A stretch of 64,000 bases of DNA from contig NZ_QPJY01000007.1 in the NCBI RefSeq assembly GCF_003337735.1, forward strand, positions 124,001-188,000. The letters run 5' to 3'. The notes beneath the pieces were generated by a model, which worked only from the letters and a program-made list of their open reading frames with translations, did no database searches and was not told where the DNA came from. Both the position numbers and the translations under genes were made by a program. Position 1 is the first letter of the stretch; each line of letters opens with the position of its first letter. This document shows, piece after piece, positions 57,012-63,273 of the stretch. This stretch comes from Thioalbus denitrificans. Its GTDB lineage: Bacteria; Pseudomonadota; Gammaproteobacteria; DSM-26407.

Positions 57012-57087
57012 GCGCCGTTAGCTCAGTTGGTAGAGCATCTGACTTTTAATCAGGTGGTCGATGGTTCGAGTCCATCACGGCGCACCA
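57012..57087 (+). tRNA. tRNA-Lys (anticodon UUU)
   Basis: A complete 76-base cloverleaf. Acceptor GCGCCGT pairs with ACGGCGC, discriminator A and an encoded CCA follow. The anticodon loop CTTTTAA gives anticodon TTT, and the T loop reads GGTTCGAGTCC. Its 3' 50 bases are duplicated at 63183-63232, so it is the integration target of the downstream element and remains intact. Confidence 0.97.
57038..57087. other. attL: 3' end of tRNA-Lys
   Basis: A 50-bp perfect direct repeat with 63183-63232, running from the anticodon stem through the CCA. Identity stops abruptly on both sides, as expected for tyrosine-recombinase attachment cores within a tRNA. Confidence 0.92.
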
Positions 57088-57862
57088 TTCAAAACAAAGA
57101 CTTACGGGATGCGGTAGGCCATATTTCGGCGGGGTTCGTCGCCGGGGTTCCTTCCAGGGTTACGGCAGGGGGCTTGCTGCATCCCCAAGCCGTGCCCCTC
57201 GCCAGCTCGGCCGGCTGGCCCCTTTTCCTCTCCCGGCGCGGCAGACACCCCCCCCTCGTTTCATACCCCCCGAGGGGCATGAGCACGCAAAAGGGAGGGG
57301 GCTTCTGTGTCTAGTACCCCCATACGCTCGCTATCTCAGGTTTTCACTGGCAACCCTCTGGCTGTACCCCAGGCATCACCGCATTGCCCGCTCAGAACGC
57401 CGTGGGCGCGACTTCTCGCCTTTGGTATGGGTACATAGCCAAATGAAGCGAAGTGCCGCCTACCGCGCTCACAGGGCGTCACAGCAGCTTGCCGCCAGAA
57501 GATAGGCGGTCATCCCCCGGCCAGGCCAGTGCGCAGTGATTGCCGGACCTGCACACCAGCAGGACAAAACCCCAGTCGAATCAATGCGTTGACACATACC
57601 CCATCGGTAAGTTGTTGATGCCTAGGAGGTATCTGCGGACGATTCGCACAACCTATTGATTGGCGGTGGAATTGTTATCAAACCGGGCTGATGGGGGTGG
57701 ACCACATACACACGCTGGACCGAACGCACAGCGGGGGAAATCAAACTCAACCCCCCGGAAGTGGCCGGAATGAGCGTTCCGTTATTGTCTCGCGCCGTGC
57801 CGCCGCATCCCGTCCCGGGGGATGGTCTACACTTGGCTTGCTCATCGGCAGGAGGCCACAAA
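57088..57862. other. Non-coding left end of the integrated element
   Basis: About 775 bases with no supported gene; the short ORFs here look accidental. A hairpin CCCCTCG (57252-57258) with CGAGGGG (57271-57277) stands near the junction. No mobilisation gene, iteron or obvious oriT was recognised. It may hold transfer or single-strand initiation sites that I cannot identify. Confidence 0.4.
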
Positions 57863-58117
57863 ATGCAGACATACAAGCTATCCCCGGAGAGGGCGGCAGA
57901 GGTCAGCATCATCACCCAGTACGGGCAGCGCTTCGGTCACCCACCACCCCCGGGCGCGTTGCAGGATGGCACAGCGGTCCGGCTGGCGAAGCAGGCCCTT
58001 GAGACGGGAATCCCCGTGGCCGAGTGGATGGACGAACCCGAAGGCACCATACCGGGCTCGAGCATCGTGCTCGGGGACTTCGACGAACCAAACGATGGAG
58101 GCGCAGACAATGAGTGA
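57863..58117 (+). CDS. Element-borne hypothetical protein, 84 aa
   Basis: Not recognised. The ATG at 57863 has AGGAGG about seven bases upstream. The first half is polar and helical (YKLSPERAAEVSIITQYG), with a PPPP turn; the C-terminus is strongly acidic (DFDEPNDGGADNE). No membrane segment. It overlaps the next ORF by eight bases, implying coupled translation. It lies in the cargo zone between attL and the replication genes. Confidence 0.6.
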   Translation: MQTYKLSPERAAEVSIITQYGQRFGHPPPPGALQDGTAVRLAKQALETGIPVAEWMDEPEGTIPGSSIVLGDFDEPNDGGADNE

Positions 58118-58387: not shown

Positions 58388-59008
58388 ATGAACTCTCGCC
58401 AGCATTTGTTAGTCGTTGGTCTAATATATGGTGCTTTAACGTTATCTGGTTGTGTAACTAGCGGGGCATCTCAAAGTCATGTTGAGCGCCCTGCAATTCC
58501 GTATGAAGAGTGGGGAAAGTTAGAGCATTACGCTGTTTCGCCAAGTGCAACAATAATCTATACAACAAAAAACAACTCTGCAAAGATCTATTATGATGGA
58601 GAGCAATGGGTTCCCCAATCCAAATCAGAATTGGAGAGATACGGGCTAGGCAGCGCAGATATTGGATTCACGGACCAGAAGAATTTCAACCCAATGCTTA
58701 TTGCAGTGACAGATAGGTATTCCTTTGGGTCGCAGGATGGCTATGAAAAATCTATGAAGCAGAGGCTTGCGTCACAGGGTGGTGAATTTGATATCCTGGA
58801 CGAGCAATATATTGTTGTTAACGGGCAATTGGTTAAGCTGATTACCTCAAAAGTATCCGTAGACAACAAGAACGTTATTCTGATTAAGCAGTCTTGGCAT
58901 GGAAGAAATAATGCGGTTGTGATAATTGATGCTGTGATACCAGAGTCATTCTATAAAAATTCAAAGCGTCAAGCACGGCTATTCATGAATGGGTTTGTAA
59001 TTGAGTGA
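58388..59008 (+). CDS. AT-rich lipoprotein gene in the element cargo
   Basis: 206-aa predicted lipoprotein, family not recognised. The leader NSRQHLLVVGLIYGALTLSGC has a lipobox with Cys22. The mature part is mixed alpha/beta with many Asn, Lys, Ile and Tyr residues. Base use is clearly AT-rich (AAA, ATT, TAT codons common), unlike every neighbouring gene, so it was probably acquired separately from elsewhere. AGGAGGTG precedes the ATG. It may alter surface properties or exclude competitors, but nothing in the sequence shows this. Confidence 0.75.
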   Translation: MNSRQHLLVVGLIYGALTLSGCVTSGASQSHVERPAIPYEEWGKLEHYAVSPSATIIYTTKNNSAKIYYDGEQWVPQSKSELERYGLGSADIGFTDQKNFNPMLIAVTDRYSFGSQDGYEKSMKQRLASQGGEFDILDEQYIVVNGQLVKLITSKVSVDNKNVILIKQSWHGRNNAVVIIDAVIPESFYKNSKRQARLFMNGFVIE

Positions 59009-59259: not shown

Positions 59260-59292
59260 CCCCCGCCCCGCCTGAGTTTGGCGGAACGGGGG
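59260..59292. other. GC-rich hairpin next to iterons
   Basis: CCCCCG-CC-CCGCC and GGCGG-AA-CGGGGG form an 11-bp stem with one 2x2 internal loop and a 7-base loop (TGAGTTT). It resembles a single-strand initiation site or strand-opening block, but could also terminate repC. Confidence 0.5.
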
Positions 59293-59354
59293 CGTGACCG
59301 TTAGTACGGGAAAGCGTGACCGTTAGTACGGGAAAGCGTGACCGTTAGTACGGA
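59292..59354. repeat. Three 22-bp iterons
   Basis: Two complete copies of a 22-base unit starting GCGTGACCGTTAGTACGG (59292-59313, 59314-59335) and a third, truncated copy from 59336. Identical in the shared part. The repC stop codon (59323-59325) lies inside the second copy. Confidence 0.92.
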
Positions 59355-60177
59355 CGCCGGGCCGGGCGATTTCGAACCTGGACCTCGAGCACTCGGCCAC
59401 CTTCCAGCCCAGCGCCGCCAGTTCGGACAAGGCATCGCGAGCCCGCTGGCGGCGCTTCCGCTTTGTGGACCTGTTGGCCTCATCCGGCCAGACGTAGCCG
59501 CACAAGGTGTCCAGGGCCACCCGGCCCATCTTGCCCGGATCAATCCAGCCGCACAGCCGCTGATGAATCAGCCGGGCAGGATCGGATCTCAACTTGCGCA
59601 CCTCATCCAGGTCGATCCGCACGTGCCGCTGATCGCCTAGGATTGCTCCGGCAAGGCGCGGGTTCAGGGCCACCAACAGCCCGCCGGTTTCTTCGTCGAG
59701 CGCGTAGCTCAGCAGATTGTACGAAGCCTGTCGCGGGCCGTTGGTGGCCACAACTGTCACGTTGGACATTCGCGCCAGACTGGCCTTCATCGCCCGGATA
59801 TTGCGCCCGCCGTCGGTCATGCCCACTTCGTGCAGTAACCGTGACATGCTCGCCCTGACCATCATCCCGTCCCGCTCGGCGGCATCGCCCACCGTGGCCA
59901 GGGAGTGACGGAGCTGTTGGCCCACTTCCGTCTCGGGGGCGGGTTCCAGCAACAGACCATCAGGCCCGGCCATGGCAACGATGCCTTGCAGCAGGCGCAT
60001 ATCATCCGCTCCCAATGGCTCGAACCCGATGAAGCGGACGCACCCGCTGGCCCCCATGTCGTGTGTGATATCCAGCTTTCCGCTTTCGCGTTCGCCACGC
60101 TTGAGGGAGCGGAACAGGCCGGGAGCAAGGCAGTGGGTTGGATCGTGCCGGGCGAGGGCCAGGTTATGCTCTGTCAC
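59323..60177 (-). CDS. repC: IncQ-type replication initiator RepC
   Basis: Iteron-binding initiator, 284 aa, close in length to RSF1010 RepC. Segments recalled from IncQ RepC proteins are present: LAPGLFRSLKRGER, PLGADDMRLLQGIVAMAG, LIHQRLCGWIDPGK and LDTLCGYVWPDEANRST. The start is GTG 60175-60177 with GGGAGGG six bases upstream, overlapping the repA stop by 14 bases. Its last eight or so codons (RTNGHAFPY) are encoded by the iteron array itself. Confidence 0.9.
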   Translation of the reverse strand: MTEHNLALARHDPTHCLAPGLFRSLKRGERESGKLDITHDMGASGCVRFIGFEPLGADDMRLLQGIVAMAGPDGLLLEPAPETEVGQQLRHSLATVGDAAERDGMMVRASMSRLLHEVGMTDGGRNIRAMKASLARMSNVTVVATNGPRQASYNLLSYALDEETGGLLVALNPRLAGAILGDQRHVRIDLDEVRKLRSDPARLIHQRLCGWIDPGKMGRVALDTLCGYVWPDEANRSTKRKRRQRARDALSELAALGWKVAECSRSRFEIARPGVRTNGHAFPY

Positions 60178-61063
60178 GGGGAGCCCTCCCGGTCTTGCCC
60201 TGCTGCATCCGGCACGCGACAGAGGGGTCATGCCGCAGGATTCCGCCCTCATTGCGGCGGAGCCAGAGCCCGTGGAACGTTGAGCCGGAGTTGGCCTTGC
60301 TCACCCCGAACCGGACATACTCGCCCCGCCTGTCCTCGCTGATGCCAAGCCTCCCGGCCTCTGCGCTGGCCATGGCGGCCAGATACCCCTGCCATCGCAC
60401 ATTGTCGGTGAGCACGGACGATCCACGGCTGGCCTGCTGCTGAGCGCCCCCGCCATTCATCGCCGCGCTCTTGGTTGTGTGGTGCAGGTACAGGACGGCA
60501 CACCCGGTGCTGGCGGCGATGGATTCCATGCGCCCGACAACCTGAGTCATCTGGCTGCTGTCGTTCTCGTCGGCTGCGTGGAAGCGCAGGAGCGTGTCCA
60601 GCACCATGATGCGGCACCCTTCCGCAGTTCTTTGCAGCCAATCAAGCCACCCGTCATCCATGAGACTTGGCCGACAGCCTGCAAGCGGGTGAATCGTCAG
60701 GCCCTTGGCTACGGCCTGCTGCTGTGCCGGGGTCATGCACCACCTCAACGCGTGCAGCCGGTGCATGATGGCGGCGGACGGATCTTCGGCTGGGAGATAG
60801 ACAGCCCTTCCAGTCGGCAGGTCACCGAGCCCCAGCAGGTCAGGGCCGCCGGCAATCTGGGCCGCCACCTGAAGCGCCAGCATAGACTTGCCGACACCAC
60901 CGGGGGACACCAGCGCCCCGACCGTCCCGGCGACCATGCCGGGAAGCACGTAATCAATCGGCGGGGGCGGGCTCTCGAAGGCGGCCATGATGTCGATGGG
61001 AGGAGGGGGAGCGACGCCCCCCCTATTCACGGATGCGGCCCGCATCGGATCAGGCCACGCCAT
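60164..61063 (-). CDS. repA: IncQ-type replicative helicase RepA
   Basis: RecA-fold hexameric helicase, 299 aa. DYVLPGMVAGTVGALVSPGG leads into Walker A GGVGKS (about 55-60); YLPAEDPSAAIMHRLHAL, MVLDTLLRFHAADENDSSQM (Walker B) and QQQASRGSSVLTDNVRWQ follow, all typical of RSF1010-type RepA. The start ATG 61061-61063 has GGAGGAGGT about seven bases upstream; it adds a short extension before the conserved region. No RepB-type primase gene is present in the element. Confidence 0.9.
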   Translation of the reverse strand: MAWPDPMRAASVNRGGVAPPPPIDIMAAFESPPPPIDYVLPGMVAGTVGALVSPGGVGKSMLALQVAAQIAGGPDLLGLGDLPTGRAVYLPAEDPSAAIMHRLHALRWCMTPAQQQAVAKGLTIHPLAGCRPSLMDDGWLDWLQRTAEGCRIMVLDTLLRFHAADENDSSQMTQVVGRMESIAASTGCAVLYLHHTTKSAAMNGGGAQQQASRGSSVLTDNVRWQGYLAAMASAEAGRLGISEDRRGEYVRFGVSKANSGSTFHGLWLRRNEGGILRHDPSVACRMQQGKTGRAPRDRA

Positions 61064-61259
61064 CGCCGACCTCCTCCCGGAGCGCAGCCCAGCCCAGAAG
61101 CGAGCTGAGCCGCCAGCCACCGGTACCATGGGGAAGGCGCAGCCGCGCCGGGAAGGTCGGACACTCGCGCTCCAATCGCTCCACGCAGTGCACGGGCACC
61201 CCGAGAAGCTTGGCCGCGTCAACAATGTCGAGCTGAACGTCGTCGGCATTAGGAGTCAT
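61050..61259 (-). CDS. Small helix-turn-helix protein, 69 aa
   Basis: A short DNA-binding-like protein: DIVDAAKLLGVPVHCVERL looks like a MerR/AlpA-type helix-turn-helix, followed by FPARLRLPHGTGGWRLSSLLGWA, the usual wing-and-helix ending of such excisionase-like proteins. It lies between alpA (11-base overlap) and repA (14-base overlap), the position held by repF in RSF1010, though no likeness to RepF is seen. Probably a regulator of the replication operon. Confidence 0.65.
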   Translation of the reverse strand: MTPNADDVQLDIVDAAKLLGVPVHCVERLERECPTFPARLRLPHGTGGWRLSSLLGWAALREEVGDGVA

Positions 61260-61458
61260 GGCTGGCCCCCTGCATCGTGCCGTCACCACGATGAGACTTC
61301 AGCCACGCTTCCACCTCGTGGACGAACCACGAGGTGACGCCGCCACCGACCTTCACCGGGGCCGGGAAATCTCCGGCGCGGGTCCAACGCCAGAGCGTCG
61401 TGCGCGAAATGGAAAGTTCACGGCAGAGGCCCGCCGCACGAATCATCCGCAATGCCAT
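61249..61458 (-). CDS. alpA: AlpA-family excisionase/regulator
   Basis: 69-aa phage/island regulator. LCRELSISRTTLWRWTRAGDFPAPVKVGGGVTSWFVHEVEAWL is the AlpA pattern (helix-turn-helix, FPxPxK wing, W.. EVEAWL). GAGGTG lies seven bases upstream of the ATG at 61458. AlpA proteins control excision and often the replication genes of P4-like elements; here it heads the alpA-orf69-repA-repC operon. A terminator-bearing leader precedes it. Confidence 0.88.
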   Translation of the reverse strand: MALRMIRAAGLCRELSISRTTLWRWTRAGDFPAPVKVGGGVTSWFVHEVEAWLKSHRGDGTMQGASHDS

Positions 61459-61507
61459 GATGGGCACCTCTTCTATCTTGTGCCGCTCATAACTTCGCGT
61501 GGCCCAT

Positions 61508-61565
61508 AAAAAAACCGACGCGATATGAGCAATCCAAGCCATAGGCTCGGGCTACTCCGCGTCGG
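61508..61565 (-). terminator. Intrinsic terminator/attenuator in the alpA leader
   Basis: On the minus strand CCGACGCG (61558-61565) pairs with CGCGTCGG (61515-61522), and seven U residues follow (61508-61514). The intervening 35 bases fold further (GAGCC-TAT-GGCTT and flanking pairs), giving a long stem. It lies 50 bases ahead of the alpA start, so it would stop alpA-rep transcription unless prevented. Confidence 0.75.
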
Positions 61566-61653
61566 CCTGCTTTCGCGGGTGCGTTGCGGCTAGCTAGCAG
61601 CAAGCACCGTTCGGGCGCGACGGTCGGCCCCGTGTGGGGCGGACGACCGGATT
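61508..61653 (-). ncRNA. Candidate leader small RNA upstream of alpA-rep operon
   Basis: Predicted from the promoter (start near 61653) to the terminator U-run: about 145 bases with two hairpins. By position it resembles the leader-encoded immunity RNA of satellite phage P4, but no sequence likeness is claimed. Confidence 0.4.
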
Positions 61654-61659
61654 GAGCGC

Positions 61660-61688
61660 ATGATATAACGCCAGGCAAATCCATGCAA
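61660..61688 (-). promoter_or_regulatory. Promoter of the alpA-rep leader
   Basis: Minus strand TTGCAT (61683-61688), 17-base spacer, TATCAT (61660-61665). The -10 matches five of six consensus bases; the -35 matches three. No other good promoter lies between the integrase stop and alpA. Confidence 0.5.
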
Positions 61689-61750
61689 CCATCTGAAGTG
61701 CATAGAGAAATTTATGCAAATTGCAGTCAGCTACGGATTGGTCTTGGCGT

Positions 61751-62992
61751 CTATCGCTGGCGCAAGGTGACCACGTTGCCGCCCGCCTCTGCCAGCCCGA
61801 GAATGGACCGCAGCCGCCGATCCCATGCATCCATTGCCTGCCGCTTCTCCGTGTCGTAGGTGTGCCGGTCGTAGATGCCGCCCACGGTGCGGTCCTTGTG
61901 GTTGAGCACCTTGTCCTGAACCAGCCGGTCGAAGCCCAGTTCGCCCAGCCGGGTTGCCACGGTGCGCCGCAGGTCATGGGGGGTCCATGGGTTCCCGGTT
62001 GCCCAGCGGGTCACGGCCCGGCTGAGGGAGGCCCTTGTCATTGGCTTGGCTGGCTTGTCCTTCGGCTGATTCCTGCCGGGGAAAACCCACTGTTCAGAGG
62101 CGCGGATTGCATCGAGTTCGCGGATGATATCCAGCGCCATGCCGGCCAGAGGGACGCGGTGGGTTTCGCCGTTCTTCGCCTTGGCCGCCGGGATGGTCCA
62201 CCAACCGCCGGCCATGTCCAGCTCGCTCCACTCCATCTGCAACACCTCGCCGCTACGCTGCCCCGTCAGCAGAAGCAGGCGCAGGGCATGGCGGGTGTAG
62301 GGCGTCACGCCGTCCAGCCTGTTCCAGAAGGCGCGGATCTCCTCATCGCTCAGGATGCGTTCCCGCCGGTTCTCCTTGGCAGGGGGGCGCACATGGGTGG
62401 CCGGGGAGCTGTCCAGATACCCCTTCTCCACGGCGAAGTTGAACATGCGCCGGACCAGGGCCAGGGTGCGGTTCGCCGCAATGGGCGCACCCCGCGCCGC
62501 GATGCCGTCCAGCAGCTTGTTCACGTCCCGCCGGGTGATGTCCTTCACCTTCCGCCTCTTCCACTTCGGCAACACATCCTTCTGCAACATCCGCTCATCT
62601 TCGGCAGCGGAACGCTTGCGGGGCTTGGCCCACTTCTCCAGATACTCGCTGGCGAGGTGTGCCACCGTCTCGGCCTCACGCTCCGCCTTCTCTGCGGCCG
62701 ACTGTTCCCGGCGGGCGTTCGCTCGCTTGGTTGCGGGGTCAATCCCCTGCGCCAGCAGTGCGGCAGCTTTCGCCTTCTCCCTTCGGGCGTCCTTCAGCGA
62801 CAGGTCAGGGTACCTGCCCAAGGTCATCCTTCGCCGCCTTCCAAGGAAGTCGTAGGCGAAGAAGAAGCTGCGCTCGCCTGTCGGAGACACCCGCACCCCG
62901 AAGCCGTCGCCTTCACGCAGGTCATAGCGGGTTGCCTTGAGCTTCGCATTGCGGATGTCAGCATCGGTGAACTTCGTTCCGTGCTTGGGCAT
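61751..62992 (-). CDS. int: Tyrosine-type integrase (P4-like, DUF4102 N-terminus)
   Basis: Site-specific recombinase, 413 aa. The N-terminal arm-binding domain (RYDLREGDGFGVRVSPTGER, then RRMTLGRYPDLSLKDAR) is the DUF4102 type. The catalytic set is R246 (TGQRSGEV), H339/R342 (TPHDLRRT), H365 (LNH) and a Tyr in IYDRHTYD (374 or 379). The start is ATG 62990-62992; the upstream extension is unlike the family. It lies next to attR and points away from it, at the end opposite the intact tRNA. It drives integration into tRNA-Lys. Confidence 0.95.
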   Translation of the reverse strand: MPKHGTKFTDADIRNAKLKATRYDLREGDGFGVRVSPTGERSFFFAYDFLGRRRRMTLGRYPDLSLKDARREKAKAAALLAQGIDPATKRANARREQSAAEKAEREAETVAHLASEYLEKWAKPRKRSAAEDERMLQKDVLPKWKRRKVKDITRRDVNKLLDGIAARGAPIAANRTLALVRRMFNFAVEKGYLDSSPATHVRPPAKENRRERILSDEEIRAFWNRLDGVTPYTRHALRLLLLTGQRSGEVLQMEWSELDMAGGWWTIPAAKAKNGETHRVPLAGMALDIIRELDAIRASEQWVFPGRNQPKDKPAKPMTRASLSRAVTRWATGNPWTPHDLRRTVATRLGELGFDRLVQDKVLNHKDRTVGGIYDRHTYDTEKRQAMDAWDRRLRSILGLAEAGGNVVTLRQR

Positions 62993-63182
62993 TGGCCTTG
63001 TCTCCGGTGATGTAAAGGAACCCCGGCGCCTCGGGGTTACTCTCGGGGTTCCTCTGAAGTGTAGGCTATCACGGAACATTAAGTAACAGAGCGAAACACA
63101 AACAAGTGATGTATTACAGTAGCTTATGCGCCTTCATCTGCTGATGGTGTGCACTATAGAAACGTGGTGTGAATCATAAATT

Positions 63183-63232
63183 TCTGACTTTTAATCAGGT
63201 GGTCGATGGTTCGAGTCCATCACGGCGCACCA
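63183..63232. other. attR: duplicated tRNA-Lys 3' end
   Basis: A 50-bp perfect copy of the tRNA-Lys 3' part, lacking the acceptor 5' strand and D arm, so not a functional tRNA. It marks the right boundary of the integrated element. Confidence 0.92.
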
Positions 63233-63241
63233 ACTTGAACA

Positions 63242-63273
63242 AAGAGGTTGCATCGAGCAACCTCTTGCTTTTT
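63242..63273 (+). terminator. Intrinsic terminator, apparently native to tRNA-Lys
   Basis: AAGAGGTTGC-ATCGA-GCAACCTCTT is a perfect 10-bp stem followed by GCTTTTT. It starts nine bases after the attR copy of the tRNA 3' end, so before integration it would have lain directly behind tRNA-Lys. Confidence 0.9.

Follow-up and report, generated by a model that had tools for sequence, protein, structure and literature searches.

A leader capped by a strong predicted intrinsic terminator stands ahead of alpA in an integrated element of approximately 6.1 kb, and it may hold the excision and replication operon of this element (alpA, a small ORF, repA and repC) at a low level while the element is integrated, a reading in which our confidence is about even. 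The element lies in a window (the whole stretch of DNA analysed) of 64,000 nucleotides. On the minus strand, the gap between the int stop (61751) and the likely alpA start codon (ATG 61458) has 292 nt; within it, a structured stretch separates a promoter-like site from a terminator-like stem that is followed by seven T. The promoter and terminator signals and the gene order are present in the DNA, and there is no good promoter past the terminator. RNA polymerase coming from the leader promoter or from int would reach the strong terminator approximately 50 nt before alpA; most transcripts would stop there as a terminated product of approximately 146 nt, and AlpA, RepA and RepC would be made by read-through only. 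The leader promoter might be constitutive or controlled by protein; through the paired TGCAT repeats over its -35, it might also be set by a protein that binds DNA, with AlpA and the small helix-turn-helix-like protein as candidates.

The element sits in a tRNA-Lys gene and carries int, alpA, the small ORF, repA, repC and three 22-bp iterons (Table 1). In a congener (G001), a left flank 90% identical to that of the element was followed by an uninterrupted tRNA-Lys; the right flank of the congener had no match, so the empty site is backed from one side only. Pfam agreed with an earlier note on this DNA in the assignment of AlpA, of a P4-class integrase and of an IncQ RepC. A longer AlpA frame, open to ATG 61542, runs across the terminator and was taken as chance. 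RepC and iterons occur together, which makes the replicon one of the IncQ type. The element shares RepA helicase, RepC and iterons with the IncQ plasmids (RSF1010 group), but it is integrated by a tyrosine integrase, and no stand-alone primase (RepB), relaxase or mobilization genes were recognized among the element ORFs scanned (part of the ORFs). Two cargo ORFs of the element (58388-59008 and 57761-58117, both on the plus strand) had no family match, and one of them is lipoprotein-like. The same genome harbours a second P4-type integrase (G000:C2:67897-69144; loci L103 and L105), 48% identical and with its own alpA downstream, across a gap of approximately 240 nt in which no U-tailed terminator adjoins alpA.

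Table 1. Features of the integrated element and of the int-alpA gap (window coordinates).
Feature	Position	Strand	Basis
tRNA-Lys (TTT), target of integration, restored by the element	57012..57087	+	ARAGORN, Rfam
Attachment repeat, tRNA end	57038..57100	+	63-nt direct repeat, 92% identical to 63183-63245
Three 22-bp iterons at repC end, putative oriV	59292..59357	-	repeat search
IncQ RepC (PF06504), start possibly internal near 60174	59323..60252	-	Pfam, 3.5e-117
RepA-type helicase (AAA_25)	60164..61063	-	Pfam; match to the RepA proteins paired with RepC in relatives
Small ORF, helix-turn-helix look	61050..61259	-	sequence; no Pfam or PADLOC match
AlpA-family protein, 69 aa, likely start ATG 61458	61249..61458	-	Pfam PF05930, 3.2e-7; PHROG excisionase and transcriptional regulator
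Predicted intrinsic terminator, long stem 61568-61512, then TTTTTTT 61514-61508	61508..61568	-	folding, T-run scan
Two predicted leader hairpins: 61649-61621; 61608-61578 inside outer stem 61620-61573	61573..61649	-	folding
Predicted 146-nt non-coding leader RNA	~61653..61508	-	promoter and terminator positions
Predicted sigma-70-like promoter TTGCAT-17-TATCAT (-35 61688-61683, -10 61665-61660)	61660..61688	-	weight-matrix scan
Two TTGCATrrATTT direct repeats, 31 bp apart, second over the -35	61677..61719	-	
Operator-like interrupted palindrome TGCATA-N8-TATGCA (perfect)	61699..61718	-	window's only exact copy
Tyrosine integrase, P4 type (Arm-DNA-bind_3, Phage_integrase)	61751..62995	-	Pfam
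Attachment repeat, int end (tRNA 3' remnant)	63183..63245	+	63-nt direct repeat

Promoters were scored with a matrix of E. coli sigma-70 weights (taken from general knowledge and GC-corrected). The predicted leader promoter came third of all sites on both strands of the window, and its score was equalled in 19 of 500 shuffled gaps (approximately 4%). Its -35 agrees with the consensus at three of six positions only, and it was not listed by a simpler, stricter consensus scan of the window. When 13 alpA upstream regions were placed on one scale, the promoter of the window was the strongest. The interrupted palindrome upstream of it is expected 0.5 times in the window even with two mismatches permitted. 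This palindrome, together with the repeats spaced by 31 bp that reach over the -35, suggests an operator.

The terminator stem had a folding energy of -34.9 kcal/mol (z -5.9), the lowest among the T-run-linked hairpins of the window, and is thus the strongest terminator-like site in the 64 kb; a hairpin below -30 kcal/mol with a T-run was present in two of ten Markov-shuffled windows. The stem is GC-rich and the U-tract follows it directly, as in intrinsic terminators. The promoter, the structured leader of approximately 145 bases and the long-stem terminator with seven U residues that the earlier note had placed before alpA were therefore all recovered, with a predicted leader of 146 nt. The best fold in which the 3' arm of the terminator was left free was 26 kcal/mol worse, no competing antiterminator fold was found and consequently nothing points to a classical attenuator with two states; in partial transcripts, the 5' arm of the terminator paired with an upstream segment only weakly and transiently. 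An Rfam search of the leader region gave no riboswitch or leader family above threshold. The two-state attenuator was rejected on the absence of both an antiterminator fold and an Rfam leader family, and leader-peptide attenuation was set aside as well, since inspection by eye revealed no convincing small ORF with a ribosome site within the 146 nt.

Folding of the whole region gave z -5.0 on the minus strand, and the part of the leader 5' of the terminator gave z -3.3 on the minus strand vs. -1.8 on the plus strand. Both values count against a role of the hairpins as DNA, that is, as a site of single-strand initiation, an origin of transfer or a region of integrase arm sites. Such a role would suit an element that may have to borrow both primase and relaxase, and the TGCAT repeats do resemble protein-binding sites, but the stem is followed by seven T, a transcription signal, a search of plasmid DNA gave no similarity and the iterons are 2.2 kb away, making this explanation very unlikely.

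Between the terminator and alpA, the promoter scan found no promoter comparable to that of the leader, so that transcription starting at the leader promoter or at int needs read-through for expression of the operon; to this extent, the read-through called for in the earlier note holds. A weak site (TTTTTT-17-TATGAG) ends at 61486, and there may be a weak alpA promoter within or past the terminator. It is possible, if rather doubtful, that the stem is an ordinary int terminator, that alpA-rep is transcribed from such a weak promoter of its own near the start codon and that the leader promoter and the hairpins are incidental. The two genes int and alpA are indeed co-directional, and four to five relatives (including the GIsul2-like elements L066, L068, L069 and L076) have a modest terminator directly past int, between int and alpA. 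Here, however, the terminator lies approximately 240 nt past int and only 50 nt before alpA, a far better promoter is placed between int and the terminator, and a structured lead-in of approximately 100 nt is nothing that an int terminator needs. Our preferred reading remains a leader whose terminator keeps the operon low; that its signals work and that read-through is the main route to the operon we infer, and likewise what triggers it. The most likely role of the terminator, insulating or attenuating, is ordinary in kind.

Stand-alone genes for small RNAs are also usually built from a strong promoter, a structured non-coding body and a U-tailed terminator. On this view, the product of 146 nt would act in trans on other targets and regulate alpA as a by-product. 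This is unlikely, as no Rfam family matched above threshold, no relative was found and the pairing of the leader with the start regions of alpA, the small ORF, repA, repC and int was at chance level. We regard it as equally improbable that the two leader hairpins form a new RNA regulator, either a cis antiterminator that carries polymerase past the stem in answer to a signal (e.g. excision) or a trans RNA limiting the IncQ-type replication of an integrative element. Iterons are the usual control point in IncQ replication. The replicon of the element has three of them, 22 bp each, like GIsul2, and the copy control by leader RNA put forward in the earlier note gained no positive evidence.

The element has a P4-type integrase, an AlpA-like regulator and a replication operon behind a structured leader in common with satellite phage P4, in which the CI RNA pairs with seqA and seqC and transcription terminates (PMC4825925). 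On this model, the leader RNA would pair with targets in the same transcript and terminate it early in trans, and a resident copy would block a newcomer. With the P4 region as a positive control, the same Rfam tool recovered both C4 (74.9 bits) and isrK (60.8 bits), while neither matched in 61400-61800 at E values up to 10. Complementarity between the leader and its flanks was at chance in a comparison of limited power (the best segments of the window were reached by 32 and 80 of 100 shuffles, those of the P4 control, approximately 200 nt apart, by 4 and 10 of 100). Moreover, the RNA region of P4 is located downstream of the AlpA-like ORF88, toward the replication genes, whereas the leader of the window is upstream of alpA, and P4 replicates with the alpha primase, as opposed to IncQ RepA/RepC in the window element. 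Immunity of the P4 type is accordingly highly improbable here, and the CI-like RNA of the earlier note was not borne out; the resemblance to P4 is one of integrase class and gene names only.

The nearest named relative, a distant one, is GIsul2, an integrative element at guaA (R485 copy, L007). Both elements carry int, alpA, repA and repC in the same order on one strand, their RepC proteins are 61% identical, and their three 22-bp iterons agree in number, period and position at the repC end. By contrast, the integrases are only approximately 31% identical, the target is guaA in GIsul2 and tRNA-Lys here, the int-alpA gap of GIsul2 measures 147 nt and is without a terminator, and the genes for transfer, arsenic and sul2 that are present in GIsul2 were not seen in the window element. 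The element is consequently of the GIsul2 type by its gene order, but not by insertion in guaA with a GIsul2 integrase. The alpA of GIsul2 is thought to be weakly expressed, which was proposed to limit excision, and forced AlpA expression led to more mobilization (PMC9376610); low default expression thus fits the element type.

In Tn916, a terminator insulates the replication genes, and a cis-acting RNA of the element antiterminates once the element is excised (PMC11658703). The T1/canT system is similar to the arrangement described here in that a terminator stands before the replication genes of an integrated element, which it silences in Tn916 (PMC11658703). Nevertheless, Tn916 is an unrelated element in an unrelated host, and its T1 stops read-through from the host close to the end of Tn916, whereas the terminator of the window lies inside the element, downstream of a promoter predicted for the element itself; Tn916 also has the antiterminator canT, and no antiterminator fold was found for the leader of the window. 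By analogy, the precedents of Tn916 and GIsul2 make control of this kind plausible. Little is known about how integrated elements that bring a plasmid-type replicon are kept from replicating within the chromosome. For one GIsul2-like element, a terminator behind an element promoter would offer a simple explanation. Its scope is local, since the leader is shared by none of the relatives found.

The leader DNA had no match in 93 other genomes or in plasmids, and a covariance model built on it found only the leader itself in 369 genomes of the class, as well as in the related loci and in the order. No leader homologue was found in the 15 other int-alpA-repA-repC loci or the 368 other genomes of the class, so that the leader has no backing from conservation. 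The window was alone among 16 distinct loci in which alpA precedes repA in having a strong terminator close to alpA; the other 15 had none. In 30 AlpA loci of the class, a compact terminator-like hairpin directly 5' of alpA occurred in L123 only, where it is short and followed by four T. On the minus strand of L094 (740-800, the same place as L123), GGAGG, the ribosome site of alpA, falls within a terminator-like hairpin adjoining the start codon. L066 at least has GTCCG...CGGAC hairpins past its int terminator and ahead of alpA, which are possible protein-binding sites. Searches of RepC, the integrase and RepA against viral contigs gave no usable close relative, and an exact 16-mer of a terminator arm matched these contigs seven times, never with extended similarity. 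When 84,980 species genomes were scanned, no RepC closer than 63% was present among the matches listed, from which near kin of the window genome were possibly omitted. GIsul2-type int-alpA-repA-repC cores that are near-identical to each other (L010-L036, L040, L061 and L062) occur in approximately 30 species from various groups of proteobacteria, which points to recent spread.
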